A program made the translations under genes and the position numbers. A DNA stretch of 20,614 nucleotides, from NCBI GenBank assembly GCA_900128585.1, contig LT642372.1, positions 1 through 20,614 on the forward strand, in the 5' to 3' direction. Source of the stretch: Stramenopiles sp. TOSAG23-3. Lineage: Eukaryota; Sar. Numbering within the stretch: the stretch's first letter is position 1; the number at the start of each line of letters is the position of its first letter. Shown here piece after piece: positions 2,419 to 20,188 of this stretch. The notes below the pieces were generated by a model that had not been told where the DNA came from, ran no database searches, and saw only the letters and a list, made by a program, of their open reading frames with translations.

Positions 2419-4503
2419 TTACCACCCAGTGTACATCTTGCAGTACGGGTTGAGGTTCAACTCCGGCTCGGAGCACATCCCTGACGACTCATCGATATCA
2501 TCCCGCAACTGCTTGTCTCTGTCAACCAAAAGCTTCGCATACCGCTTTTCGGCAATATCTCTTGCCTTTTCCATGGCTTCAAATTCACGTTTATCAAAGT
2601 CCGCCGGATTCTTTCGCCGAAAGTCACGCTGCGCTTGCTTCTTTTCGCCGATTACCTTCTCCCGGACGAACGCAGCCTTCGCTTTGTTCAAGGCGGTTTT
2701 CGCCACCTTCGCGCCTTTCACCTTCTCCCCTCGCTCCTTGATTTCATCGCGCATCTTGCGCTCAATGTCGCGCGATTTGATCTTCACTTCCGCTTTTCCT
2801 TCGCGGGAATCCATGTACTTGATTGCCGCCTCTTCGCCTTTCTCCCCTGCGGTGTTGACGTACTCGTCCTCCTCTTTCGACCTAACCTGCTCCGCGGCCG
2901 ACCGTTGTCTCAACCACTCCAATTCCGCCGCGTCGTGAGAGATTCGTGCCTCCTCCATGATTCGTGCAATATCCTCTGTCACTTGCGCCTTCTTGTCCTT
3001 CTGCTCCCGCTCTGCCCTCATCTTTAGCCGCTGTATCTTCATCCTAACGTTTGAACCCTTCATCATGTTCATTAGCTGGTTGTAGGCTTCTTTGCTGCTG
3101 CTGTCTTGGCGCTTCTCCATCGTTGCAAAGGCAACGTCAATCGGCCGCTTGTGCACGTAATTGTCCTCCATTGCTGTAAAAACCGCACCCTCGGTGTTGT
3201 GCAACAAAAATTTTATTACGGGCATGGAGCCATTCCGAGCTGCCCAGTGCAGGCACGTGTCCCCATGGGCGTCCTTGTAGTGGGTCTTCGCCCCCGCATC
3301 GATCAGGCATTTCAGTACGTTTATGCGATCCTTCAAATTTCCGATATGGGTCCGGGCGGCCTCCATCAACGGGGTCACGCCGTTCATGATGGTATCCCTG
3401 CAGTTTACATACGTCTCCATCGCTTCATAACCGTAAGCCCGCCGCACGTGCTCAGTCAACCACTTGACCAGTTCAACATGGCTGCGCCAGCACGCCATGT
3501 GAAGCACTGTGCTCCCCGTGCCCCCGCGATCGTGGTGCCTCCGAACGTCCCATTTCCGGTGCTGGACGTACTGCTTCACAAACCTCACGTCGCCCTCTGC
3601 AGCGGCTTCGTATATTGTCCGCTTGTCGTTTTTTTCCGCGGTCGCCCGCTCAGACTTTGCAGACCTAGTGTTTCGCTTTGAGTCCTTGCTTTGTTTGGAC
3701 TCTTCCTTCTCTTCGCCCTCGTGCCTTATTCGCTCCTTCTTCCAAAATTCTTTGGAAAACTTTAAACGTTCTAACATTTTTAACTGGGACTGAGGGCGTT
3801 CTTCCTTCTCGACTTCTTTCACTTCGCTGTAATCGTCTGCTGTGCTAGACTTGACTTTTTTCTCTCTTTTCGTCGTCTCTGCCGCGGCCTCCTGCGCTAG
3901 CAAATCATTGTACCTCTTTTGTCTATCGGAGTCTCGCTTCGCCCGCTTGGAAATTTCTTTGGGCGTCGCGTCTTTTATAGCCTGCAAGCGAGCGGCTTCC
4001 TCCGCCTCCGCCGTGGCCTTGGCCTCCAAGCGAGCGGCTTCCTCCGCCTTGGCCTTGGCCTCGGCCTCCTTCGCAGCAATGGCCGCTTTATCTTCAGCGG
4101 AAAGTGCAGGCTCTTCTAACCGTGGAGGAGGGGCGTCCTCACGGGCGGGGGGGGCTTCGTCCTCACGGGGTGGGGGACCTTCGTCCTCGCGTGGGGGGGG
4201 CACGTCGTCCCGGGCTGGAGGGCCTTCGTCCTCACGGGGGGGGGGCGCGTCGTCTCGGGCTGGAGGACCTTCGTCCTCGCGAGGGGGCGGGGCGTCGTCC
4301 CGAGCTGGTGGTACTTCATCCTCACGAGGGGGTGGCGCGTCGTCCCGAGCTGGAGGACCTTCATCCTCGCGGGGAGGTGGTGCGTCGTCCCGAGCTGGAG
4401 GGCCTTCATCCTCGCGGGGAGGTGGCGCGTCGTCCCGAGCTGGAGGGCCTTCATCCTCGCGGGGAGGTGGCGCGTCGTCCCGGGAAGGTGGTGCGTCGGT
4501 CAT
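2419..4503 (-). CDS. Ankyrin-repeat protein with acidic/proline tandem repeats and coiled coils
   Basis: A complete 694-residue frame. Residues 9-98 are six near-perfect 15-residue repeats, unit DDAPPPREDEGPPAR, with two degenerate copies continuing to about 128. Residues ~135-290 are Ala/Glu/Lys-rich and charged, typical of a long single helix or coiled coil, and end in a Lys/Ser-rich stretch. Ankyrin repeats occupy about 295-460; consensus fragments include T-x-L-H-x-A at 332-337, G-V-T-P-L-M-E-A-A at 376-383 and G-D-T-C-L-H-W-A-A at 414-422. A second highly charged helical region covers about 485-670, and the protein ends in a short Cys/Tyr/Trp-containing tail. Ankyrin repeats bind proteins, and the long helices suggest a scaffold or cytoskeletal linker. 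No enzyme domain, signal peptide or membrane segment is seen. Partner and location are unknown. The repeat's 45-base period keeps every frame open, so overlapping frames are shadows. Confidence 0.8.
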   Translation of the reverse strand: MTDAPPSRDDAPPPREDEGPPARDDAPPPREDEGPPARDDAPPPREDEGPPARDDAPPPREDEVPPARDDAPPPREDEGPPARDDAPPPREDEGPPARDDVPPPREDEGPPPREDEAPPAREDAPPPRLEEPALSAEDKAAIAAKEAEAKAKAEEAARLEAKATAEAEEAARLQAIKDATPKEISKRAKRDSDRQKRYNDLLAQEAAAETTKREKKVKSSTADDYSEVKEVEKEERPQSQLKMLERLKFSKEFWKKERIRHEGEEKEESKQSKDSKRNTRSAKSERATAEKNDKRTIYEAAAEGDVRFVKQYVQHRKWDVRRHHDRGGTGSTVLHMACWRSHVELVKWLTEHVRRAYGYEAMETYVNCRDTIMNGVTPLMEAARTHIGNLKDRINVLKCLIDAGAKTHYKDAHGDTCLHWAARNGSMPVIKFLLHNTEGAVFTAMEDNYVHKRPIDVAFATMEKRQDSSSKEAYNQLMNMMKGSNVRMKIQRLKMRAEREQKDKKAQVTEDIARIMEEARISHDAAELEWLRQRSAAEQVRSKEEDEYVNTAGEKGEEAAIKYMDSREGKAEVKIKSRDIERKMRDEIKERGEKVKGAKVAKTALNKAKAAFVREKVIGEKKQAQRDFRRKNPADFDKREFEAMEKARDIAEKRYAKLLVDRDKQLRDDIDESSGMCSEPELNLNPYCKMYTGW
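4120..4479 (-). repeat. 45-bp in-frame tandem repeat (about 8 units)
   Basis: This repeat encodes the 15-residue acidic/proline units of the ankyrin protein: six near-identical copies (4210-4479) plus two degenerate ones toward 4120. The plus strand is rich in G runs. The high nucleotide identity between units suggests recent expansion by slippage or unequal exchange, so copy number may vary between strains. Confidence 0.9.
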
Positions 4504-5584: not shown

Positions 5585-7930
5585 ATGGCAACGTTTGTAG
5601 GTGAAAACTCGACAGAGCTTCTGAACAAACAGACCGTTGCCTTGGAGGCGACTGGTGCTGTATCAAAGGCTAGTGTCACAGTCAAAGCGGTCGTCTCGCT
5701 GCGTTACAAAGAGGGGTACAAAATTCTCGCCCAAGTAGGGGATTGGAAAAATTCATACAAAGGCACCATTACGCGTGCCAACGCAGACGGCACCTATGCT
5801 GTCCTTTTCGACGACGGTGAAAAGGTTGAGAAAGTTCAACCGTCAGAAATAAAGAGCGTGGTGAACAGTGAAAAGGACATTGTTGTTGCAGAAGGGATCT
5901 CTGCCTCGCGGGCTAAACAAGTAGGAAAATGCACGTCGGAGTACACGGTTTCGTTCGACGACGACAACGCCAAAAAGTCCAAAGGGGGGTCGAGCCAAAT
6001 GACGCTGCAAGAGCGCTTCAACGCTATGAGGCGCAAAAAATTGGCGGAAAGCAAGCATGCAAACTACGTCCGTCGCCGCGGGCAACGGTCTAAGGAAAGG
6101 AAGGATAAGCTTCGGAAAGATTTTATTGCGCAAGTCAAAAAGTACATTGGTGTCCCATATGCTCAAAAGTACCACGAGAAGGGCACCGAAGCGTTCGAAT
6201 CCCCCATATTCTTGGATTGCTGCGCGTTGATCAGGCGGGCGCAAAACGATCTGGCCGAAGACTTCGGGTTTCTTCTTGGCCGGTGGAACCAGAACTACCA
6301 GATGTCCACCCTCCCTGAAGTGGCAAAATTTGAAGACTTGAAAGAGGGGGACCTCATATTTTACGAGGCTGCTTACTACAACCCAGAAAAGGCCAAGAAG
6401 CAACGCTTGGATCTCGTCCACGTGGAGATGTTTTACCCCGGGAAAACGGGAAGGGGCACCATCGGTTCCCGATGGCAGAAAGGCCGAGTGCAAGAATTCG
6501 ACTCTTACGAGTTTACGTCAAAGAACTACCACTCCGTAAAACACCATTTTCGCAGCATAGACAGGTGGTTGAATGGGGAATGCACGCCTTCTCACGACTT
6601 TTGGCCTGTAAATAATATTTCAAACATGGCAACCAACAAATACTCAATGTTCAATGCGGAGAACCTTGCCACTAGCGAATCGGCAGACGGCACAGAGGAT
6701 TCCGTGTCCCTTCAGAACGTCAGAAAGCGCTTCTACGTTGGGCAAGGAAATGGCTGGAAAATGATTGCTGATTCTCTGTTTGCACGAGGGGATTGGATTC
6801 AAGTGCCGTTTGACCAAGGCTTCAGCCAGAACTACCACTTGAAATGGGTAGAACGACGCTCAGAAATCGATTTTGCAACATTGAAGGAAAACAATCAAAT
6901 TGCAAACCACATTTCCAACAACGACGTCATTACGACGAAGAAGGGCCTGATGGAAGTGTTGAAATTTTTACACAATGAAGAATTTATAGACATTTCTTTT
7001 TTTCCAACCTCATACGACTTCACCCTTGCAAGCGATAGATTGGAGTTCTTGTCGCATATCAAGGGAAAAGGAGACTATGTGGCGGGCGTCCTAGACCCAT
7101 GGATCGTGAAACCGATCGCCATGAACCGTGGAAGGGGCATAAAGATTTACAAGAATGCAAAGCCAATCTGCAACGAGCTGCTGGGCGGCAGGGACCTCGA
7201 GAATTGTGGGGGAATTGACAAGTGGAACGGTTCGAACGCATTGAACGGTTTCATCTGCCAAAAGTACTTGACAAATCCTTTGTTGATTGACGGTAAAAAG
7301 TTCGACATTCGAGTGTACTGCTTGGTTTCAGAATGCCATTCCGAACAGTTCATGGCGTTCTACGCCCCAGGTTACTTGCGAATGTCTCTTGAGAAGTATA
7401 CAAACACCGATTTTACCAATCAATTTGTCCATTTGAACAACATTGCGATTCAGAAAAATCACAAAGACTACAAGCAGAGGCGCGAAGAGTCCATCTGGAA
7501 CTTTGATCAACTGAATTCTTACTTAAATGAAAAAGGTATCGGGGAAAAGGACTGGGCTCTAAACGGCTTTCAGCACGAGATGAAACGAATCATGTCCATC
7601 TTGCTCGTTGGGGCCTCTAAATCTTTGGAGCGGAAAAAGGGTACCTTTGATCTGCTCGGGTTTGATTTCATGGTCGATGCCGACCTAAATGTAAAGCTAA
7701 TTGAGGTCAACACGAATCCAGCGCTTCACAAGAATGACGGCAAGTGGTTGCAAACCTTGTTTCCTAAACTGGTCACAGAGACGCTAGATATTGTGCTGAA
7801 ATCAAATGAACTCGACGGAAGTGAAATGTTTGAAGACGCAGAAGAAAGCAGCGGCAAACCCGAGAAGATAGATGGACTCTTCGAGCTGATTTATAATGAG
7901 AAAGGGCGGTTTATGTATCACCAACAATGA
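5585..7930 (+). CDS. Tudor-like + NlpC/P60-like peptidase + tubulin-tyrosine-ligase fusion
   Basis: A complete 781-residue frame (ATG with A at -3, G at +4). Residues ~35-92 look like a Tudor/Agenet-type barrel (Y-K-G-T-I near 58-62, Y-A-V-L-F-D-D-G at 71-78). A basic linker (~145-178) follows. Residues ~178-325 resemble an NlpC/P60 papain-like domain: D211-C212-C213 fits the D-C-S/G nucleophile motif, E-G-D-L at 254-257 the usual strand, and H279 in L-V-H-V-E the catalytic histidine; the third polar residue is unclear. Residues ~380-740 are a tubulin-tyrosine-ligase-like domain with W-I-V-K-P (506-510), R-G-R-G-I (515-519), Q-K-Y (559-561), K-F-D-I-R-V-Y (572-578) and a metal/ATP site D694, E707, N709. 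TTL-like enzymes join Tyr, Glu or Gly to tubulin or other proteins using ATP. The ligase core appears intact. Which amino acid it transfers cannot be read; the R-G-R-G-I form resembles that in glycylases. Confidence 0.85.
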   Translation: MATFVGENSTELLNKQTVALEATGAVSKASVTVKAVVSLRYKEGYKILAQVGDWKNSYKGTITRANADGTYAVLFDDGEKVEKVQPSEIKSVVNSEKDIVVAEGISASRAKQVGKCTSEYTVSFDDDNAKKSKGGSSQMTLQERFNAMRRKKLAESKHANYVRRRGQRSKERKDKLRKDFIAQVKKYIGVPYAQKYHEKGTEAFESPIFLDCCALIRRAQNDLAEDFGFLLGRWNQNYQMSTLPEVAKFEDLKEGDLIFYEAAYYNPEKAKKQRLDLVHVEMFYPGKTGRGTIGSRWQKGRVQEFDSYEFTSKNYHSVKHHFRSIDRWLNGECTPSHDFWPVNNISNMATNKYSMFNAENLATSESADGTEDSVSLQNVRKRFYVGQGNGWKMIADSLFARGDWIQVPFDQGFSQNYHLKWVERRSEIDFATLKENNQIANHISNNDVITTKKGLMEVLKFLHNEEFIDISFFPTSYDFTLASDRLEFLSHIKGKGDYVAGVLDPWIVKPIAMNRGRGIKIYKNAKPICNELLGGRDLENCGGIDKWNGSNALNGFICQKYLTNPLLIDGKKFDIRVYCLVSECHSEQFMAFYAPGYLRMSLEKYTNTDFTNQFVHLNNIAIQKNHKDYKQRREESIWNFDQLNSYLNEKGIGEKDWALNGFQHEMKRIMSILLVGASKSLERKKGTFDLLGFDFMVDADLNVKLIEVNTNPALHKNDGKWLQTLFPKLVTETLDIVLKSNELDGSEMFEDAEESSGKPEKIDGLFELIYNEKGRFMYHQQ

Positions 7931-8177: not shown

Positions 8178-9446
8178 TCAAGACTCCTGCTGGGAGGCAA
8201 GTTTGCCGTCTGCGTTGGCACTCTCTCCCTTTGCAATCTCTACCTCGTACGAGATTGAATTACTGTACCACCAGGAATGCTCATTGCTCCACCGCAACAG
8301 TAAAAGGCCGCTTTCGCTTCCTTTGTACTCTCCCGATTGAGGCCCTCCTATTTTCTCTACTTTTTGTTCAGCCAGAATCGGTATTGTGACTGTTCCGGAA
8401 CTTTCGCTTTCACCGCTGCGGCTGTTGCGGAAAAATTTGACACTGAACATAATATCTTTGCTATGCACTTCAAACTTCCAGCTCGCCGACGTAGACCCCG
8501 CTTGTGGGTCTATCTCAACAAGGACTTCGCGGTATTTTCCAGCGTTGATGGTCACATTATCGCCCTTCATCTCGTTCCCTCCGCCCGTGTCCTTGGCTTT
8601 TCGGAAGCTTATCAGGGCACTAAGGGTTCGTGTGCTTATTTGATCCATTATATGCTTTCGGTAATCGTGCCCATGGATAAAGATACGGCTCCTTGTACGT
8701 TTCGGTATGGCGTGCTTCGCCATAGCGTACAAAGTACGAACTATCATTGGAGCGTTAATCAAAAAGATCCGTCCCACAAACTCGACGTGAGTGCACGTTA
8801 GCGCTCGGTCGCTAAAATCTTTGTCTACAGCTGACCATTCTTTATTATTCAAATTGGCCATCGATGCACCAGCGCAGTCGACAATGACCACTTGCTTCAT
8901 CAACCGATTGTACTTGCGTGACAGCCTGTCCATCTGAATCTGGCGCAAAATCAAGTCTTCGAGTTTTGTCTCCCATATTTGCTCGACAGTTAGTGCCTCC
9001 ATCAAGTTTTTTGTGTTGTGGTCTCCCTCCGGGAGGTAAATTATGACGTGGCCTGAGGGGTTTTCGCCCGCGCTCAGCTGATTTGGGAAGTGCTCTGCCC
9101 ACGCACTTCCGTGGGTCAAATCCTCTTGGCCGAACAATGGTTTTTCGTCCAAAATTTTTACCATTCTCTGCCTCACCTCGTCCAAGTTAAACTCCGCGCG
9201 CAGGGCTATGTGCTTCTTAAACAGCTTCACGGCCTCTGGTATCTCGCGGTTACACCCACGCAAAAATCGCAATAAATTAAAGTGCCCAACAACTTCAGGG
9301 AACTCGCTGTGCTTTCCCGTGGTCAACAGATCCCCAAGATCTGCCTTTAGCTTTAACAGCAACTCTTCTTCCTCAGGACTCGCCATTTGCGTGTCCCACG
9401 AAGGGTCGTCCACGATAGCAGCAGTATCCGTCGCCAAGCTTGCCAT
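8178..9446 (-). CDS. Sec14-like (CRAL-TRIO) lipid-transfer protein with GOLD domain
   Basis: A complete 422-residue frame beginning MAS. Residues ~53-95 match the CRAL-TRIO N-terminal helices (L-L-R-F-L-R-G at 58-64, A-L-R-A near 81-84). Residues ~105-275 are the Sec14 lipid-binding fold: V-I-V-D-C-A-G at 187-193, the F-L-I-N-A-P motif at 228-233, and a basic I-P-K-R-T-R-S-R-I segment at 247-255. Residues ~295-405 are a GOLD beta-sandwich (W323-K-F at its core, D-I-M-F-S-V at 331-336, L-L-R-W-S-N near 383-388). Sec14-GOLD proteins carry phosphoinositides or other hydrophobic ligands between membranes and regulate lipid signalling or Golgi traffic. There is no signal peptide or membrane helix, so a cytosolic, membrane-associated protein is expected. 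The usual Y-P-E-R element reads H220-V-E-F here, a modest divergence. The next gene upstream on the same strand starts 2.4 kb away; they are separate units. Confidence 0.88.
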   Translation of the reverse strand: MASLATDTAAIVDDPSWDTQMASPEEEELLLKLKADLGDLLTTGKHSEFPEVVGHFNLLRFLRGCNREIPEAVKLFKKHIALRAEFNLDEVRQRMVKILDEKPLFGQEDLTHGSAWAEHFPNQLSAGENPSGHVIIYLPEGDHNTKNLMEALTVEQIWETKLEDLILRQIQMDRLSRKYNRLMKQVVIVDCAGASMANLNNKEWSAVDKDFSDRALTCTHVEFVGRIFLINAPMIVRTLYAMAKHAIPKRTRSRIFIHGHDYRKHIMDQISTRTLSALISFRKAKDTGGGNEMKGDNVTINAGKYREVLVEIDPQAGSTSASWKFEVHSKDIMFSVKFFRNSRSGESESSGTVTIPILAEQKVEKIGGPQSGEYKGSESGLLLLRWSNEHSWWYSNSISYEVEIAKGESANADGKLASQQES

Positions 9447-10196: not shown

Positions 10197-11834
10197 TCAC
10201 GCAAGGTTTTCACCACTGTTAAAGGCCTGGTAATCAACGTTGCTGCTGCTGTCCAAGCAATTCAAAACCGAGTCGCGCTCTTTTCCAAAATTGACAGGCA
10301 ATTTCAAAACGTATTTTTCAAGCGGGATTCCGATTGAAAATATTGCAAAGAAGACATATGCATCGTGTCTATGCTTCCCATCTAGCAAAAAAACACTGAT
10401 CAGCGCGCTGATACAAATATACGATAGTCTTACGCCGAAGAACTGCAGTAACTTCCTGTCTGTCCACTCCACTCCATAGCCATGAGCTACAGTGTGATTT
10501 AGATGAAGTATAGACACGGAAATTATTATAAGTGTGGTCCCCGAAATCGAAAGGTTCAAGGTTAGCGATGCAAGCGAGTTATTCTCAGCCATTTGGACTG
10601 CTGCAGAATTCAATCCCAAGCCTATAGACAGGATAAATATGCAAATTACAGACACATCGTGACTGAGTTGATACCTTGTCCTCGATCGCTGCATGGCAAT
10701 CAGAGAAGGCCGGTACGTATTGAAGTACAGCATTTTTACCACAATTGCATACAGAATAGCATCTAATTGCGGAGAGATGTTGTCGGCCGTTTTGTGCGCT
10801 TCTGCGAGATGTTCGTGGTAATCAGAAGCGTTTGCAGCGCAGTAATGCATGATACCAAACTCGCCTGATATGTCTGAAATCGCCGATTCTACCATTACAG
10901 CTATGTTTACAATAATAAACAAACCACACCGCTCGTTGAAGTACTCGATGTGCAAGGGTTCGCACTGGTTCCTGATAGAAGTAGCGAAAGGGATCACCAG
11001 GGGCGGCAATACTAATGGGATTATTGACGTGATCAATGAAATATACTCGCTTAACGGCCGGTCGAGAAAAATACTGGCCAAGTAAGGTGAGGCGCACAAA
11101 AGTAATGAAGACCCCTCCAAAATATTTATCGCCCTGTTCATTTCAGAGGCACTGGCGATGCAAAGTGACACGGCACCTAGCAATGACAACGAACAAGCCG
11201 TGCCAATGAAACAAATTCTACAAGGATCCCCCTCGACACTTGTTGCTCCACACGCAGTTTGTTTGACGCACTCTGGTAACCTAGCAATTCCAATCGTCTG
11301 CGCCAAAATTATACATACAATCAAAATCGTGTCATGAAACCTACCCGTGTGATAACGGTTCCGAAAAAAAGTTAAATGCCGCCAAATAACAGACACTGTG
11401 GCAAATCCTGTAAACAAAGACACCAATCCAGCTTCGATCCTTTCGTTTGCGATGGCAACGCTAGAAGCCTCCCAGTATCTCAAAATTTGTCCCACTAGAA
11501 TTAGGTCGAAAAATATGTCGAACCATTTCACTTTTCTGTGGGAATTTTGTCCACTATTTGCATAAGATTTGTCCTTCAACTGTATCCATGTTTGCTGACT
11601 AGCGGGAAAATTAAAAATACTTTTCTTCAGAGTGCGATGGGTGACTCCTGTATGCGCAGACGATACGGTACTGTTGAATGATTCAAACGATGCACCTGCG
11701 GTTCTCGAATAATAAGTCCCAGAACCATTGGAAGACGCCAAATTGACTTTGTCCTCGGGGTTAATAAGCCCTTGGCGCAACCAACTTTGCCGTTCAGCCT
11801 TGCTGGCCGTGGCGGTATCCACACGCAGTTCCAT
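10197..11834 (-). CDS. LtrA-like (low-temperature-requirement A family) multipass membrane protein
   Basis: A complete 545-residue frame. About 100 polar Ser/Thr/Asn-rich residues precede a hydrophobic region running to about residue 515, with roughly 10-12 candidate membrane segments and a short polar tail. Two hallmarks of the bacterial LtrA family are visible. W104-F-D-I-F-F-D-L fits the opening 'W-x-E-L-F-F-D-L', and H295-I-E-Y-F-N-E-R-C-G-L-F-I-I-V (295-309) fits the 'E-R-x-G-L-F-x-I-I' motif. The N-R-Y segment at 159-161 occupies the place of another conserved polar site. LtrA was named from a Listeria mutant needing it for growth in the cold; its transport or signalling activity is unknown. 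Divergent homologues occur in fungi and protists. The long Ser-rich cytosolic-type N-terminus is extra compared with bacterial forms. Function here cannot be stated beyond integral membrane protein. Confidence 0.7.
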   Translation of the reverse strand: MELRVDTATASKAERQSWLRQGLINPEDKVNLASSNGSGTYYSRTAGASFESFNSTVSSAHTGVTHRTLKKSIFNFPASQQTWIQLKDKSYANSGQNSHRKVKWFDIFFDLILVGQILRYWEASSVAIANERIEAGLVSLFTGFATVSVIWRHLTFFRNRYHTGRFHDTILIVCIILAQTIGIARLPECVKQTACGATSVEGDPCRICFIGTACSLSLLGAVSLCIASASEMNRAINILEGSSLLLCASPYLASIFLDRPLSEYISLITSIIPLVLPPLVIPFATSIRNQCEPLHIEYFNERCGLFIIVNIAVMVESAISDISGEFGIMHYCAANASDYHEHLAEAHKTADNISPQLDAILYAIVVKMLYFNTYRPSLIAMQRSRTRYQLSHDVSVICIFILSIGLGLNSAAVQMAENNSLASLTLNLSISGTTLIIISVSILHLNHTVAHGYGVEWTDRKLLQFFGVRLSYICISALISVFLLDGKHRHDAYVFFAIFSIGIPLEKYVLKLPVNFGKERDSVLNCLDSSSNVDYQAFNSGENLA

Positions 11835-12788: not shown

Positions 12789-15700
12789 TTAAATGATGTC
12801 TTTCCGCTTCTTCTTCTTCTGAAAACCTGAGGAAACCTTTGTACTAAGCTGTGCATAATTCAACGCATCAACGCCATCTTCAGCAAAGTTCGAGCGATCG
12901 GTGATTGTAAGGCTTTCTCGTGCCGACGACTTTTTGGGCGGAGTACATTTTGGCGGCGCTGGTTGTTTGTTGTCACCACGCGGGGAAGGCAGAGAGAGGC
13001 GTCGGTCTTGCTTAATCAAATCTTCATTTTTCTGCTTAAAGTGTGACTTAAACTTTGCTTGCTTCAGTTTTTTCTTTACCCAGGACGGCGTGTCACTGAT
13101 AAAGACTGCCAGGCAAATTTTAATTCCAATCATCGCGTGCTCCAGCAGTACCAGGTTGAATGGGTCGAGGTGTATTGCATTTGGGGAGGTAGACACGGTG
13201 TTTGAATCGCTCAAAGTAAAGTATATGAGCGCAAAATTGCAAACAACGGCAAGGAGAGCCAGAAACTCCAAGACCCTAACCCATGACTTTCCTATACTGT
13301 CCACTACTTTCGGCGTAGGCCTTTCGATGTAATTGAGGTACAGGTTCATTTCCCCGTAGCTTTGGACAATATTAACGATCAAACTTATGACTGGAGCCAG
13401 GGGGAAAGCAGCAGAAAAATTAATCAAGTAGCTAAACTGTTGAATCAATTCAGCATAATCGTCCAAAATCCCGTCGTACCGGCCACGAATGTTATTCTCG
13501 CGCAGGTAGGAAATGTTCCTCTTGTGCTCCTTCTCCTTCGTAGTAGGCAACACGGAATCCTCCACGCGATCCTTACTGCTGCCGCACCAGTCCTTCGACT
13601 TGTACTTCATCGCTGGGAGGACAATTTGCTTGACAGTATTGACCACTTGTTTCGAAACCATAATCGTGAACAAAAGCGTGTACAGCTTTATTCTGTTGCG
13701 TTGCACGAACGCGGTGTGAAACAAAGCAACGTTCCCGTTGATCAATTGGAACAGGAAAACTTTTACGGTGAGGGACTGCTGGAACGATGCGTCCGTTCGG
13801 TGGTTCTCAAAATCACAAACCTGTCGCGCCAAAATAGAATACGCCCTGTTCAATATAATAATAGAAAGACCGTTCAGTATGCCCCCAATCATGCTTATGT
13901 ACACCGGCATACCTTTGGACATTTCGTTCCAGCTTTGCAGCACAAGAAAGCCGGCTATGATGCCAGCTCCCAAGACCAACAAAATAGGGATTTGGAGGGA
14001 TGTTCTCATCCAACGCTTGGACGATGGAAAATATTTTACTGTATCGCCACTTATGGGATCTACCCTTTCGTTCCCAAAAAAACCTTTTCGTACGCGGTTC
14101 CCTTCAAGATCTGCTCCTGGCGAAACAATTCCATCATTCAGCCCCCACACGGTCTTTATTTCGCTAGATTTCCTTTTCCAATATTCGACGAAAAGTGTGG
14201 CCCAAATACTCAAGTACACGGAAAAGTAAATAGCATTCGTAGCGTCAAAAATACCAGCGTTCAAATCTCCTGCATCCACAATTGAATACAACTGTATGGC
14301 CCCGACAACCATCCCGGGCAACGCGATGAAAATCAAGAAGAGATTGTAGCAGTACAAGAAGGAGAAGTAGAACCCCAACTCTTCCCCAAAGTAGTACGTG
14401 ATTGTAGTGAACAGAGAGAACTGATTGTGCTGATTTTCGAAGAAGCATTCGTGGAGGGTGGCCCACTTCGGCGTCCATTTGAACCACATTTTCTTGAGAG
14501 TTTTAATCTCTTTGCTGTTGTGCAGCACTGTGACGCGAGTGAGGATGGTAAAATAGGACTCAATGTTTACGCCTTTGTCGCAAATATGGTTCAACAAAAT
14601 CTTTATTTTGTCCCGCGAATTCCACGGCTGGAACATTCTGAGAAGATCCTTGCGAAACGGGACACGGTCGTCCGAAAATATATACTCACAGTGGTACTCC
14701 ATCTTTTCTGCCCATTCGTCAAACTTTTCTGATCCACGCAGGACGCCAACTTTCATGATAACCTTTGTTCCATCATCATTTGCATATATCTGCCTGCACG
14801 ATATGCCATGCGCCAGCAAAATGTTTTCTAACTTTACCTTTGTGTTTTCTTTCCAGACGCTCTTAACAGCGCTCTTTTTACTGCTGCAGCAGCTGAAGAA
14901 CGGTTTGTCCTCCGCACTCAGATCGTACTCAAACGTCAAAAAATTATCATAATTGCCTTTCTTAATACTGCCTCGATTCTGATAATCTTGAATAGTAACA
15001 CCGTACTTGTTGGCGCGGATAGACTTTTCGTATTCCATCTTTGCGAGTCCTATCGACTCTAAGCATTTTTCTATTGCTTTTATTGTTTTCTTCGTACCTC
15101 CAAATCTTTCGTCGAAGTTCTCCATCACATAAGCAATATGAAGCGGCGTGTTGCCCTCAAAGTCTCGCTTCATCATGTTACTCCAAATTTTCTTCTTACT
15201 TTTATCGTCGTCTTTTTTGAAAAACTCGTCAAAAAACTCTTCTTTGAACGCCTCGTTTCTTCCCATCGTTGCTGCGGCATGAAACGCATTCTGCTGTCGC
15301 ATTACCGCATGCTTCCACTTGTACAGGGAAGAAATATCAATTTTCCTCGACTGGGCATACGTCAGCGCCAGCTGCACCACGTCAAACTTACCAAAGAATG
15401 TTGCCCAGAACACCAACTTTTTCAAATGTTCTAATTTGAAGATCTTGCCTGCTTTCTTGCCTGAACTTTCGTGGCTTTCCATCAGGGATTTAGTGCATTC
15501 AAGGGTCTGAATAGCAATATTCTCGTAGTCCTCGACGGAGGCGAAGTAGTACGACTTGGGCAGCACCTCCCGGGAGTACAGCAAGGTGTCTGCGTCGATG
15601 AACTTATCAGTTGTATTTTTGCGAAATTCTAGTTCCAGCATCTTTCGAAAGTACAGCGAACCGACGACATCAAGAACTACGTGTCCCAGAGAGTTATCTT

Positions 15701-16277
15701 TCCATAATAATCGCGCAAATCCGTCACTATATTTTTCTTTTCTTATTCTATCCAAAGCGGTATCTTTGTTTTTATCTTCCCGCCCCACTTTAACCATCTG
15801 CTCAAACGCCGTCCAAGTGCCGTGCGTCGCAAGCCAGTGAAGGCACGACGTTTTGGAGCTCTTGTTATAACCAAACTGGTCTATCGAGCCCCTGCAGTCC
15901 TTCAGTAGCTTTTCAATGCACTTTTTCTGGTTCTCTTCTCCTGATTTGTTTTTTGCCCGGTCTATGCAAGCTAGAATAATTGGTGTGTTGCCGTAGTAGT
16001 CACGCCCACGGGCCAGTTTCTTGCGCCCATCCTCGGAATGTTTTTGGGCTATTTTGTCCAATAGGACAGTATTGAATTGCCTGGCCGCTACGTGATACAA
16101 GTTTCGCTGTTCATTTGTGTGAAACGAACTCAGTAACTCCGATGCGTTGACATTGTCGACAAAAGAAGTCATCTGCGTTGGAGTGAAACTGGATGAAAAC
16201 ATTTTCGCGCTTGTCCTTTTTCGTTTGGGGAGATCGCTTTGCTCATCCTTCTTAGGAGCTACTTTTCCACCACCCAT
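12789..16277 (-). CDS. Ankyrin-repeat anoctamin (TMEM16-family channel/scramblase)
   Basis: A complete 1162-residue frame. Ankyrin-like repeats occur at about residues 59-162 (G-N-T-P-I at 96-100; C-L-H-W-L-A at 145-150) and 321-389 (G-N-T-P-L-H-I-A at 375-382). The anoctamin part starts near 505. Helices are seen at about 637-664, 683-700, 761-780, 793-817, 835-858, 865-888, 947-974, 1002-1022 and 1042-1064. Family marks include Y-F-G-E-E-L-G (629-635), W699-x-R-K before TM3, V-D-P-I-S-G (739-744), F-E-N-H-R-T (823-828), F-P-L-A-P (958-962), E-R-P (985-987) and a late E1046-H. Anoctamins are dimeric calcium-activated anion channels or lipid scramblases of plasma or internal membranes. Against mouse TMEM16A the six calcium ligands align with N880, Q884, D940, E943, Q972 and E976, so two Glu are Gln here. 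A basic, Pro/Ser-rich tail (~1085-1162) follows. An alternative start at Met26 exists. Confidence 0.88.
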   Translation of the reverse strand: MGGGKVAPKKDEQSDLPKRKRTSAKMFSSSFTPTQMTSFVDNVNASELLSSFHTNEQRNLYHVAARQFNTVLLDKIAQKHSEDGRKKLARGRDYYGNTPIILACIDRAKNKSGEENQKKCIEKLLKDCRGSIDQFGYNKSSKTSCLHWLATHGTWTAFEQMVKVGREDKNKDTALDRIRKEKYSDGFARLLWKDNSLGHVVLDVVGSLYFRKMLELEFRKNTTDKFIDADTLLYSREVLPKSYYFASVEDYENIAIQTLECTKSLMESHESSGKKAGKIFKLEHLKKLVFWATFFGKFDVVQLALTYAQSRKIDISSLYKWKHAVMRQQNAFHAAATMGRNEAFKEEFFDEFFKKDDDKSKKKIWSNMMKRDFEGNTPLHIAYVMENFDERFGGTKKTIKAIEKCLESIGLAKMEYEKSIRANKYGVTIQDYQNRGSIKKGNYDNFLTFEYDLSAEDKPFFSCCSSKKSAVKSVWKENTKVKLENILLAHGISCRQIYANDDGTKVIMKVGVLRGSEKFDEWAEKMEYHCEYIFSDDRVPFRKDLLRMFQPWNSRDKIKILLNHICDKGVNIESYFTILTRVTVLHNSKEIKTLKKMWFKWTPKWATLHECFFENQHNQFSLFTTITYYFGEELGFYFSFLYCYNLFLIFIALPGMVVGAIQLYSIVDAGDLNAGIFDATNAIYFSVYLSIWATLFVEYWKRKSSEIKTVWGLNDGIVSPGADLEGNRVRKGFFGNERVDPISGDTVKYFPSSKRWMRTSLQIPILLVLGAGIIAGFLVLQSWNEMSKGMPVYISMIGGILNGLSIIILNRAYSILARQVCDFENHRTDASFQQSLTVKVFLFQLINGNVALFHTAFVQRNRIKLYTLLFTIMVSKQVVNTVKQIVLPAMKYKSKDWCGSSKDRVEDSVLPTTKEKEHKRNISYLRENNIRGRYDGILDDYAELIQQFSYLINFSAAFPLAPVISLIVNIVQSYGEMNLYLNYIERPTPKVVDSIGKSWVRVLEFLALLAVVCNFALIYFTLSDSNTVSTSPNAIHLDPFNLVLLEHAMIGIKICLAVFISDTPSWVKKKLKQAKFKSHFKQKNEDLIKQDRRLSLPSPRGDNKQPAPPKCTPPKKSSARESLTITDRSNFAEDGVDALNYAQLSTKVSSGFQKKKKRKDII

Positions 16278-18232: not shown

Positions 18233-20188
18233 CTACTGTGCACTGCTCTCCCTCAGCGTCACACACTCCTTGTACCATTGCGCTGTCCTTTTCATCCCTT
18301 CTTCGAACGATACTCTTGGCTTGTAGCCTATCAATTTCTTTGCCTTATCTATGTTGGCGCACGTGCGCGGCACATCCCCCGGCTGCATTGGCATAACATT
18401 TATCTTGGCCTTTTTCCCCGCGCAATCTGCGGCGATGCTAATGAAGCGCTTCAGACTAATGGGTCTTCCGTTTCCTAAATTATATACCTGGCAACCAAGC
18501 GGGTTATCGAGGGCCCCGATGACTCCGCTGACAATGTCATCGATGTACGTGTAGTCGCGCTCGCTGCTTCCGTCCCCATACTGGTCTATTGTGATCCCGC
18601 TGAATATGCGGTGAATAAACTTGTACGGGGCCATGTCAGGCCTTCCACGAGGTCCGTACACTGTGAAGAACCGCAGACCTGCGGTGGGCATTTTGTACAA
18701 ATGGTTGTAAGTCGCCGCCAGCAACTCGCAGGCCTTCTTTGTCGCAGCATACGGCGACACCGGGGCGTCCACAATGTCCGTTTCCCGGAACACGGCATTG
18801 TTCGATCCGCCGTAAACGGACGAAGAGCTTGCGTACACGAAATGTTTGCAGTTGTGCTTTCTTGCGATGTCCAACAAAGTCGTGGTCCCACGCACATTGC
18901 TGTGGACGTAAATGAGGGGATCATTTATGGACGGGCGAACCCCAGCCCGGGCTGCCAAGTGCACGACATGGGTAATGCCATGCAACTCGAACAGACTGGA
19001 CATAGCGTCGGCGTTGCAAATGTCGTCGCAGACAACGGTGAGCGTTCCCGTAGATTGCCTGGCGACTTTTTTCACCCACTGCAAGTTTTCGTTCTTTTGT
19101 TTAATGTCGTAATACTGGTTCATTTCGTCCACAATGACGACGTTGTCTCCGCGCTTTAACAAGTTCACAGAGGTGTGGCTACCAACAAAGCCCGCTCCGC
19201 CTGTCACCAACACTGTTTTCTTCTCCACGATCGCTTTCTGGACAGGGGTCTCGAACTGCGCCCCTTGCTTCTGCTCGTCCTGTGCGGAATCCTCAGCGAT
19301 TCTAAGGTTTAGGCGAACATCTTCTTCTGTCAAAATGTCGCTGGACAATTTTCGTTTTTGTCCCACTTTCTCAACAACGACGTGCTCGGCAACCCCGTCG
19401 ATCGATTTTGGAAAAAGGCTCATCTGGCTCTGGGGGCGGGATACTTTGCTTTGCATTTTCAGCTCGTGCTTCGCTTTCCTCACCTCGTCTTCAAAATTGG
19501 TATCCCAGTTGATGGAATCGAGCTGCACAATCTTTGCTCTGTTGGTCTCGGCAGAGCATACGCTCTGGATTAATGAGACAGCGGCCACTTCTTCCACCCC
19601 AGCACTTGTGCCTGCGATGAGCCCATCAGCCACCATTGGAAATCCAATTCTCCCCAACTTGTGTGTATTCCACAACGCCAAGGTGTTCCACGGGACCGTA
19701 CGGCCATTGATTGGAACCTTGGTGTTCCCCTGTTGAAAGTCGTGGCCTGGCAGTTGTGCTCCAACAACGAGCGTGCATTCATCGTGCAGCCCAAGTAGCT
19801 TCGCGGCGTCTTTTTGCCCTGCAATCATCTCCAGGGACTGAAATAGAATGTATTTCGCCTGCACCGCCATTGACCGTCGTAGTAGGGCATTCAACGCCGG
19901 GGTGAACGTGGACCATTCCGAGACACCAACAACTGTTGTTCTTGATGCTGCGGTAGCGCTGACAGAAGCGTCGACGATACGCTTAACTGCAGAGTAAAGT
20001 GAAATTTCGCCGGATATCTCTCCGGTCAATTCCACTTTCACCGCAATGAGAACATGGCCTGCGTACGAAGCAGCGGTCTCTACGAAAGCCACTACCCGGT
20101 CGCAGAATGCCGGCGTCACCCGGTCCACTGACCCGTGGATCCTCGTGGCCACGCACAATTGAGTTAAATCTGTTAGTTTGTTTGGCAT
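18233..20188 (-). CDS. UDP-glucuronate 4-epimerase-like protein with N-terminal glycosyltransferase-like extension
   Basis: A complete 651-residue frame. Residues ~324-642 form a short-chain dehydrogenase/epimerase: the NAD-binding T-G-G-A-G-F-V-G at 329-336, L-A-A-R-A-G-V-R at 411-418, S-S-S-S-V-Y-G at 454-460 and the catalytic pair Y480-x(3)-K484 in S-P-Y-A-A-T-K. F-F-T-V-Y-G-P-R-G-R-P-D-M-A (507-520) and the R-D-Y-T-Y-I-D-D segment (544-551) are typical of UDP-glucuronate 4-epimerases, which make UDP-galacturonate for acidic polysaccharides. Free epimerases of this type are about 330-430 residues, so ~320 residues are extra. The extension (residues ~10-235) has a Rossmann-like start (C-V-A-T-R-I at 12-17) and a P-W-N-T-L-A-L-W-N block at 166-174, and ends in A-G-V-E-E-V (196-201). 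It may be a diverged nucleotide-sugar or glycosyltransferase-type domain, and the family is not certain. A low-complexity linker (~235-320) joins the halves. No transmembrane anchor is visible, unlike plant Golgi forms. Confidence 0.85.
   Translation of the reverse strand: MPNKLTDLTQLCVATRIHGSVDRVTPAFCDRVVAFVETAASYAGHVLIAVKVELTGEISGEISLYSAVKRIVDASVSATAASRTTVVGVSEWSTFTPALNALLRRSMAVQAKYILFQSLEMIAGQKDAAKLLGLHDECTLVVGAQLPGHDFQQGNTKVPINGRTVPWNTLALWNTHKLGRIGFPMVADGLIAGTSAGVEEVAAVSLIQSVCSAETNRAKIVQLDSINWDTNFEDEVRKAKHELKMQSKVSRPQSQMSLFPKSIDGVAEHVVVEKVGQKRKLSSDILTEEDVRLNLRIAEDSAQDEQKQGAQFETPVQKAIVEKKTVLVTGGAGFVGSHTSVNLLKRGDNVVIVDEMNQYYDIKQKNENLQWVKKVARQSTGTLTVVCDDICNADAMSSLFELHGITHVVHLAARAGVRPSINDPLIYVHSNVRGTTTLLDIARKHNCKHFVYASSSSVYGGSNNAVFRETDIVDAPVSPYAATKKACELLAATYNHLYKMPTAGLRFFTVYGPRGRPDMAPYKFIHRIFSGITIDQYGDGSSERDYTYIDDIVSGVIGALDNPLGCQVYNLGNGRPISLKRFISIAADCAGKKAKINVMPMQPGDVPRTCANIDKAKKLIGYKPRVSFEEGMKRTAQWYKECVTLRESSAQ

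Follow-up and report, generated by a model that had tools for sequence, protein, structure and literature searches.

A gene on the forward strand of the window (the whole 20,614-nucleotide stretch analysed here) appears to encode a TTLL10-type tubulin polyglycylase with an old N-terminal NlpC/P60-like domain that would act as an amidase on glycine side chains, a reading to which we give a probability of roughly 40%. Its observed parts, the fold of the N-terminal domain and the TTLL10 assignment of the ligase, are together close to certain. The domain is probably catalytic, and its action on the glycine side chains of tubulin is plausible at somewhat below even odds. Both the ligase and the fold are known, and their old union with an unusual active site is apparently undescribed: a search of the open PMC literature, with subscription papers outside its range, returned no paper pairing NlpC with tubulin tyrosine ligase or with tubulin glycylation.

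The frame at 5585-7930 (+) runs through 781 uninterrupted codons from ATG to stop and, together with domain searches, confirmed the initial annotation of a Tudor-like barrel, an NlpC/P60-like domain and a TTL-like ligase in one 781-residue chain (Table 1). It had been allowed that the two halves might belong to different genes; the identical domain order in 157 collected proteins, including transcript data sets and named animal genomes, answers this in the negative and leads us to reject a chance frame or a fusion artefact. For the N-terminal part, Pfam gave only sub-threshold Tudor matches (Tudor_3, E = 0.0081, under the cut-off), and the predicted model has five strands at residues 47–94. 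A stretch resembling this barrel occurs in the relative P0004 and not in P0006, P0008, P0010 or the gecko protein. Genome searches were run against a 12.9-Mb assembly of 660 contigs, among which the window is contig C630, and one 759-aa frame at G000:C332:1170-1877 was found to hold three stretches resembling this barrel.

Table 1. Features of the fused gene, with positions in the window
Feature	Positions	Strand	Basis or remark
Whole gene	5585..7930	+	781 aa; Tudor-like barrel, NlpC/P60-like domain and TTL-type ligase in a single open frame
Tudor/SH3-like barrel, residues 47-94	5723..5866	+	Model strands; sub-threshold Pfam Tudor_3; similar genome stretches
Helix preceding NlpC/P60-like domain, residues 141-163	6005..6073	+	Partial conservation; model
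NlpC/P60-like domain, residues 170-333	6092..6583	+	Fold searches and profile alignment
Tyr192	6158..6160	+	Aligned with oxyanion tyrosine Tyr226 of YkfC; Tyr in 153/155
Asp211-Cys212-Cys213	6215..6223	+	Predicted nucleophile Cys212; Cys213 where Ser is usual
His279-Val280-Glu281	6419..6427	+	Predicted catalytic His; bacterial rows have Gly or Ala opposite Glu281
Gly294-Ser295-Arg296	6464..6472	+	Gly294 at third triad place; Arg296 in 155/155
Linker of low confidence, residues 345-377	6617..6715	+	pLDDT < 50 in predicted model
TTL/TTLL10-type ligase, residues 378-741	6716..7807	+	Pfam TTL, motifs, BLAST, tree

The window also holds several genes on the reverse strand. These include an anoctamin/TMEM16 channel (E = 4.8e-99) at 12789-16277 (-), whose single frame also codes for ankyrin repeats at the N-terminus, an LtrA-family membrane protein at 10197-11834 (-) (E = 6.8e-16), whose family is named from bacteria and is here found in a eukaryote, and a CRAL/TRIO (Sec14-like) protein at 8178-9446 (-) (E = 2.3e-12). 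An ankyrin protein at 2419-4503 (-) has as its N-terminus a long run of PPPREDE/PPARDDA-type repeats that also opens long antisense frames, and the frame at 18233-20188 (-) joins an NAD-dependent sugar epimerase to some 320 residues for which Pfam listed no match.

The NlpC/P60-like domain is highly divergent, as the PF00877 model did not find it in a search of its own genome. Its score of 14.3–14.8 bits lies below the gathering score of 23, the middle part searched alone matched Pfam NLPC_P60 at E = 0.03, under the curated cut-off, and an NCBIfam search gave no useful match; the relative P0112 reached 24.9 bits, and 17/17 of the A4 set matched PF00877 at E ≤ 1. The proposed fold was nevertheless borne out by structure searches, in which no other papain-like family ranked above the NlpC/P60 rows (not in itself a proof of absence), and by a single hhalign profile comparison, in which a set of 80 bacterial DPP-VI-like domains was matched with a probability of 97.6% and E = 4.6e-12. 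In the HMM check that had been suggested for this domain, the match to the NlpC/P60 model PF00877 stays under the gathering score.

Among 155 domains that scored above 100 bits and covered over 150 profile positions (P0002, a near-copy, is one of them), Cys212, Cys213, Arg217, Asn235, Gln236, His279, Glu281 and Arg296 are kept in every copy, Asp211 in 154, Tyr192 in 153 (Cys in two) and Gly294 in 153 (Ala in two), counts that may be inflated because word seeding in the protein search prefers copies with the commonest words. The predicted dyad of Cys212 and His279, which aligns with the Cys and His of 3npf and its relatives, is accordingly upheld; the papain-like triad with a third polar residue is not, since Gly294 stands opposite the bacterial third His. 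Residue 294 was placed by a global profile alignment and a by-eye gapless fit of short-loop relatives (P0112), and an alternative alignment sets the bacterial third His a few columns earlier, at position 291, likewise in a non-conserved column. Because the third polar triad residue is absent, we name the domain NlpC/P60-like and not a canonical NlpC/P60 peptidase. As judged from the alignments, the domain retains the dyad, the tyrosine and the aspartate, has lost the third triad residue, and shows a fixed family-specific set of Cys213, Glu281, Arg296, Asn235 and Gln236.

The available text of PMC2954226 lists Tyr226, Asp237, Cys238, Ser239, His291 and His303 among the active-site residues of YkfC, describes its S1 pocket as made for gamma-D-Glu, and suspects loss of activity or a change of substrate in members without the Cys/His dyad or Tyr226. 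These six residues correspond, in alignments read by eye, to Tyr192, Asp211, Cys212, Cys213, His279 and Gly294 of the window domain. The subfamily marker Asp256 of YkfC aligns with Gly232 (columns again read by eye) and is without a conserved acidic counterpart, for which reason a YkfC-type recognition of a free N-terminus was rejected. When two short patterns were scanned against 84,980 prokaryote genomes and against viral contigs, 17 and 24 stretches matched, respectively, and none was confirmed as a relative of the domain. With no prokaryote or viral relative from this pattern scan and relatives in animals, a recent bacterial acquisition in this lineage is unsupported.

Relatives were collected by a protein search with residues 150–350 (54 proteins, gecko TTLL10 among them), a second with the gecko domain (125 proteins, the best 120 of 125 taken) and a further collection search (the best 120 of 476 matches taken). 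The vertebrate sources among the matches listed were lizards, snakes, turtles, crocodile, axolotl, caecilians, coelacanth, sturgeons and sharks, and the non-vertebrate sources were sea stars, sea urchins, acorn worm, corals, annelid and the brown alga Ectocarpus; many further domain relatives among the matches listed are metagenome contigs, and P0019 is a fused protein of the ciliate Protocruzia adhaerens. Most vertebrate matches listed were named TTLL10, and the others were often named 'uncharacterized', 'probable beta-tubulin polyglutamylase' or 'polyglycylase TTLL10-like'. Automatic annotation had already flagged the domain in five entries, under the database name 'NlpC/P60 domain-containing' (P0079, P0099 and P0113) or the JGI name 'cell wall-associated NlpC family hydrolase' (P0118 and P0150). 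The fused TTLL10-type protein P0059 of Platysternon megacephalum is named 'sodium/hydrogen exchanger 1', probably a naming slip.

Two HMMs of our own, applied to the 256 collected proteins at E ≤ 1e-10, found both domain and ligase in 157, the domain only in six and the ligase only in 93, and a looser limit of E ≤ 10 changed these counts to 158, five and 93; the count of proteins with both was 158 at 1e-5 and still 157 at 1e-20. In 122 of 163 domain-bearing proteins the ligase match extends into the final tenth of the profile, many of the others looking cut at a contig end, and P0021, P0037, P0045, P0116, P0127 and P0140, which have both parts in the looser count, gave no Pfam TTL match at E ≤ 0.01. 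Ligase motif counts (117/158 and 114/158) likewise come from a set that includes proteins with apparently contig-cut ends; the motifs were viewed by alignment in 55 proteins, and only P0040 is used among the misses. The survey of domain order called for by the initial annotation found the same fusion in a ciliate, a brown alga, animals including vertebrates and metagenome proteins, a distribution by which we consider the fusion old and widespread.

Among the matches listed, models with the domain numbered 0/51 in mammals, 0/17 in frogs, 0/1 in birds (duck), 1/2 in salamanders, 2/3 in caecilians, 6/9 in turtles, 1/1 in crocodile, 13/30 in squamates and 10/10 in fishes, where the groups were made by hand from names and the fish figure is biased by nine rows that came from the domain search. 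A model without the domain is no proof of loss, as 17/30 squamate and 3/9 turtle models are without it and have relatives with it. This variation within squamates and turtles implies a contribution from alternative first exons or short models, and the uniform absence in mammals and frogs is read from database models, with more than one model for some species.

The ligase half is TTLL10-like. Pfam TTL matched residues 434–738 (E = 6.3e-49) and, with the presumed active-site motifs WIVKP, KFDIR, FDLLGFDFM (688) and LIEVNTNP (705), agrees with the earlier description of an intact TTL-like ligase; HLNN (616) stands where HLTN is usual. By BLAST, residues 345–781 scored 182 bits against mouse, 193 against duck and 194 against Xenopus TTLL10, all without the domain. 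Scores for the 14 fused or TTLL10 proteins compared ran from 140 bits, for the fused ciliate protein P0019, up to 220, and those for five TTLL paralogs of the same genome from 99 to 114. The genome search gave no score above 92.5 bits for the ten other ligase-like places; L003 and the ligase-like places C226, C601, C595 and C99 are outside the BLAST and tree sets. A 31-row tree, in which TTL and TTLL3 are represented by PDB stretches only, joined the window protein, the fused proteins and vertebrate TTLL10, including those of mouse, duck, Xenopus, gecko and coelacanth, in a 25-row clade with support of 97/94. TTL, TTLL3 and four of the five own paralogs fell outside this clade, and the long-branched L006 joined its base. 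Mouse and duck TTLL10 are nested deep among domain-bearing proteins, so that in these two the domain was either lost or missed by the gene models. According to the accessible portion of PMC12340829, purified Xenopus TTLL10 elongates glycine chains, and extension starts exclusively at a branch-point glycine joined to the gamma-carboxyl of a glutamate in the tail. Some relatives are named otherwise in the databases, for instance 'probable beta-tubulin polyglutamylase', and the donor amino acid may therefore differ within the family.

The domain is better conserved than the ligase to which it is joined. Over 112 complete fused proteins (6216 pairs), mean pairwise identity was 56.3% for the domain versus 40.2% for the ligase, and the domain was the more similar part in 6098/6216 pairs and in 5745 of the 5746 pairs with a ligase identity below 60%; these proteins were gathered mainly by domain words, which biases the comparison, and part of the gap may be selection. 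Such bias is unlikely to be its whole cause, because the gap is large and uniform. A paralog in the same genome (G000:C222:4290-4778; L002 661-2148), with 51% identity and a frame of 495 aa, has the key active-site residues and no ligase in its frame, and the metagenome protein P0040 (639 aa) combines intact domain key residues with a degenerate-looking ligase (LMK for LIE, no HLTN). Taken together, L002 and P0040 suggest an independent role of the domain. Another metagenome protein, P0139 (694 aa), has the domain with a U-box (E = 4.7e-12) and no TTL ligase.

Matches in the genome to IFT57 (360.6 bits), to a radial spoke protein (178.4 bits) and to a tubulin tail suggest that the organism builds motile cilia. 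Three tubulin C-terminal stretches were found, one with the acidic Glu/Asp-rich tail EEEGEFDEDEDMGDDMM, which we take to be beta-tubulin on the basis of a motif, as well as four M14 peptidase stretches without an assigned CCP subtype. Glycylation is described as abundant in cilia in the consulted part of PMC12340829, and passages of PMC11244163, PMC7566705 and PMC12340829 call tubulin deglycylases unidentified. Giardia 14-3-3 is reported in an excerpt of PMC3962474 to be deglycylated by two metallocarboxypeptidases, so that deglycylation is possible by another enzyme class. Long side chains have been reported for bull sperm tubulin (PMC11244163, in part), and mammal models are without the domain, which would thus be dispensable there.

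The initial annotation had proposed an eraser of tubulin side chains, arguing from the gamma-glutamyl linkages cut by NlpC/P60 enzymes, and had made it a deglutamylase. The relevance of the gamma-link stands, as the branch-point glycine is attached to the gamma-carboxyl of a tail glutamate (PMC12340829, available text), and deglutamylation as the main reading was set back by the TTLL10-like ligase in BLAST and tree. Because this ligase is TTLL10-like and Xenopus TTLL10 elongates glycine, a side chain of glycine is to be expected and any eraser would be a deglycylase, which leaves a writer and eraser aimed at glycine as a reasonable but unproven idea. Ligase and domain would then act on the same tubulin tails, where Cys212, activated by His279, would attack the carbonyl of a gamma-glutamyl (or glycyl) amide. 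The simplest target would be the gamma-Glu-Gly bond of the branch-point glycine, or the chain near the branch, where Arg296 may hold the departing glycine by its free carboxylate. The number or length of glycine chains would be set by addition and removal in one protein, for which glutathionylspermidine synthetase/amidase (GspSA) offers a precedent with the compound that it makes itself. Here we infer that catalysis proceeds without the canonical third residue, what the substrate is and which way regulation runs. More tentatively still, the NlpC/P60-like domain of TTLL10 could be the tubulin deglycylase that has so far been missing: an ancient eukaryotic activity, housed within the glycine elongase, that cuts the gamma-glutamyl-glycine branch or the glycine chain and that mammals and frogs have lost, in which case the control of glycine chains would differ in these two groups.

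The kept dyad and pocket would also suit an active cysteine hydrolase or acyltransferase with another substrate. This could be a different protein that carries glycyl or gamma-glutamyl modifications, a small gamma-glutamyl compound or the backbone of the tubulin tail, and the fusion would then do no more than bring the domain to cilia. The domain is not everywhere tied to the ligase, as the domain-only L002 and the U-box-fused P0139 exist, and a Giardia TTLL enzyme modifies 14-3-3 (PMC3962474, excerpt). We nevertheless consider another substrate unlikely, as 157/163 domain-bearing proteins match the ligase at E ≤ 1e-10 in searches whose length limits favoured long proteins, which points to a shared substrate. 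The loss of the third triad residue (Gly294) could instead mean that the domain is catalytically dead and serves as a reader, binding glycylated or glutamylated tails to bring in the ligase, and RipD of Mycobacterium is, by the title of 4jxb, a non-catalytic NlpC/P60 binding domain. TTLL10 recruitment needs monoglycylation and is itself increased by glutamylation, in the available text of PMC12340829; however, Xenopus TTLL10, whose database model (P0196) is without the NlpC/P60-like domain, is described there as needing and recognising monoglycines unaided (construct residues 105–570). A dead reader would moreover leave no evident reason for Cys and His in 155/155 copies from animals, a ciliate and algae, and we judge it improbable.

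Hydrolytic domains on ligases can edit, and fusion to an ATP-dependent ligase would fit a role within the ligase cycle, either editing wrongly added amino acids or moving glycines as a transpeptidase, and not erasing chains. Mammal and frog models, however, keep the ligase without the domain, and domain-only copies exist, which makes such a role quite improbable. An artefact, by chimeric assembly or two adjacent genes, has next to no probability in view of the domain order shared across the 157 collected proteins. Under the preferred reading, the domain is a candidate for the missing deglycylase that belongs to a family cutting gamma-glutamyl bonds, is kept in TTLL10-type elongases and is better conserved than their ligase. 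What removes glycines from tubulin would become directly testable through a joined protein found from algae to turtles. The published biochemistry on Xenopus TTLL10 comes from a group whose models are without the domain, so that this work could not have met it.

Compared with known systems, the CCP/TMCP tubulin deglutamylases remove tail side chains (PMC11244163, in part), the role proposed here for the window domain, but are carboxypeptidases on separate genes. YkfC and dipeptidyl-peptidase VI (3npf, 3pvq and 3h41) share with the window domain the fold, the placement of Tyr, Asp, Cys and His, an Arg that follows the Cys motif (DCSGLVR / DCCALIR) and a QQAY / NQ(A/N)Y segment, whereas the window domain has Gly as the third triad residue, Cys for Ser after the nucleophile, Glu after His, an invariant Arg296 and no peptidoglycan setting. 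Ser239 of YkfC, where the window domain has Cys, binds the substrate carboxyl, and the peptidoglycan substrate of NlpC/P60 is D-Glu with a free alpha-carboxyl, in contrast to the L-Glu of tubulin with its alpha-carboxyl in a peptide bond. The ligase lies in one clade with named vertebrate TTLL10 proteins, and the domain also occurs in TTLL10-type proteins of reptiles, fishes and sharks and in echinoderm and cnidarian relatives, although mammal, frog and duck models are without it and the window protein has the extra Tudor-like barrel. GspSA and trypanothione synthetase-amidase differ in their small-molecule substrate and amidase family, and the structure-search match of the window domain to 2vob was not significant (E = 1.7, probability 0.06). 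In the accessible text of PMC6272389 and PMC2784880, these two enzymes carry an amidase and an ATP-dependent ligase in one chain and hydrolyse what they make, and it is in this architecture, an N-terminal Cys-dependent amidase (CHAP) and a C-terminal ATP-dependent ligase with one amide both made and broken, that they resemble the window protein.
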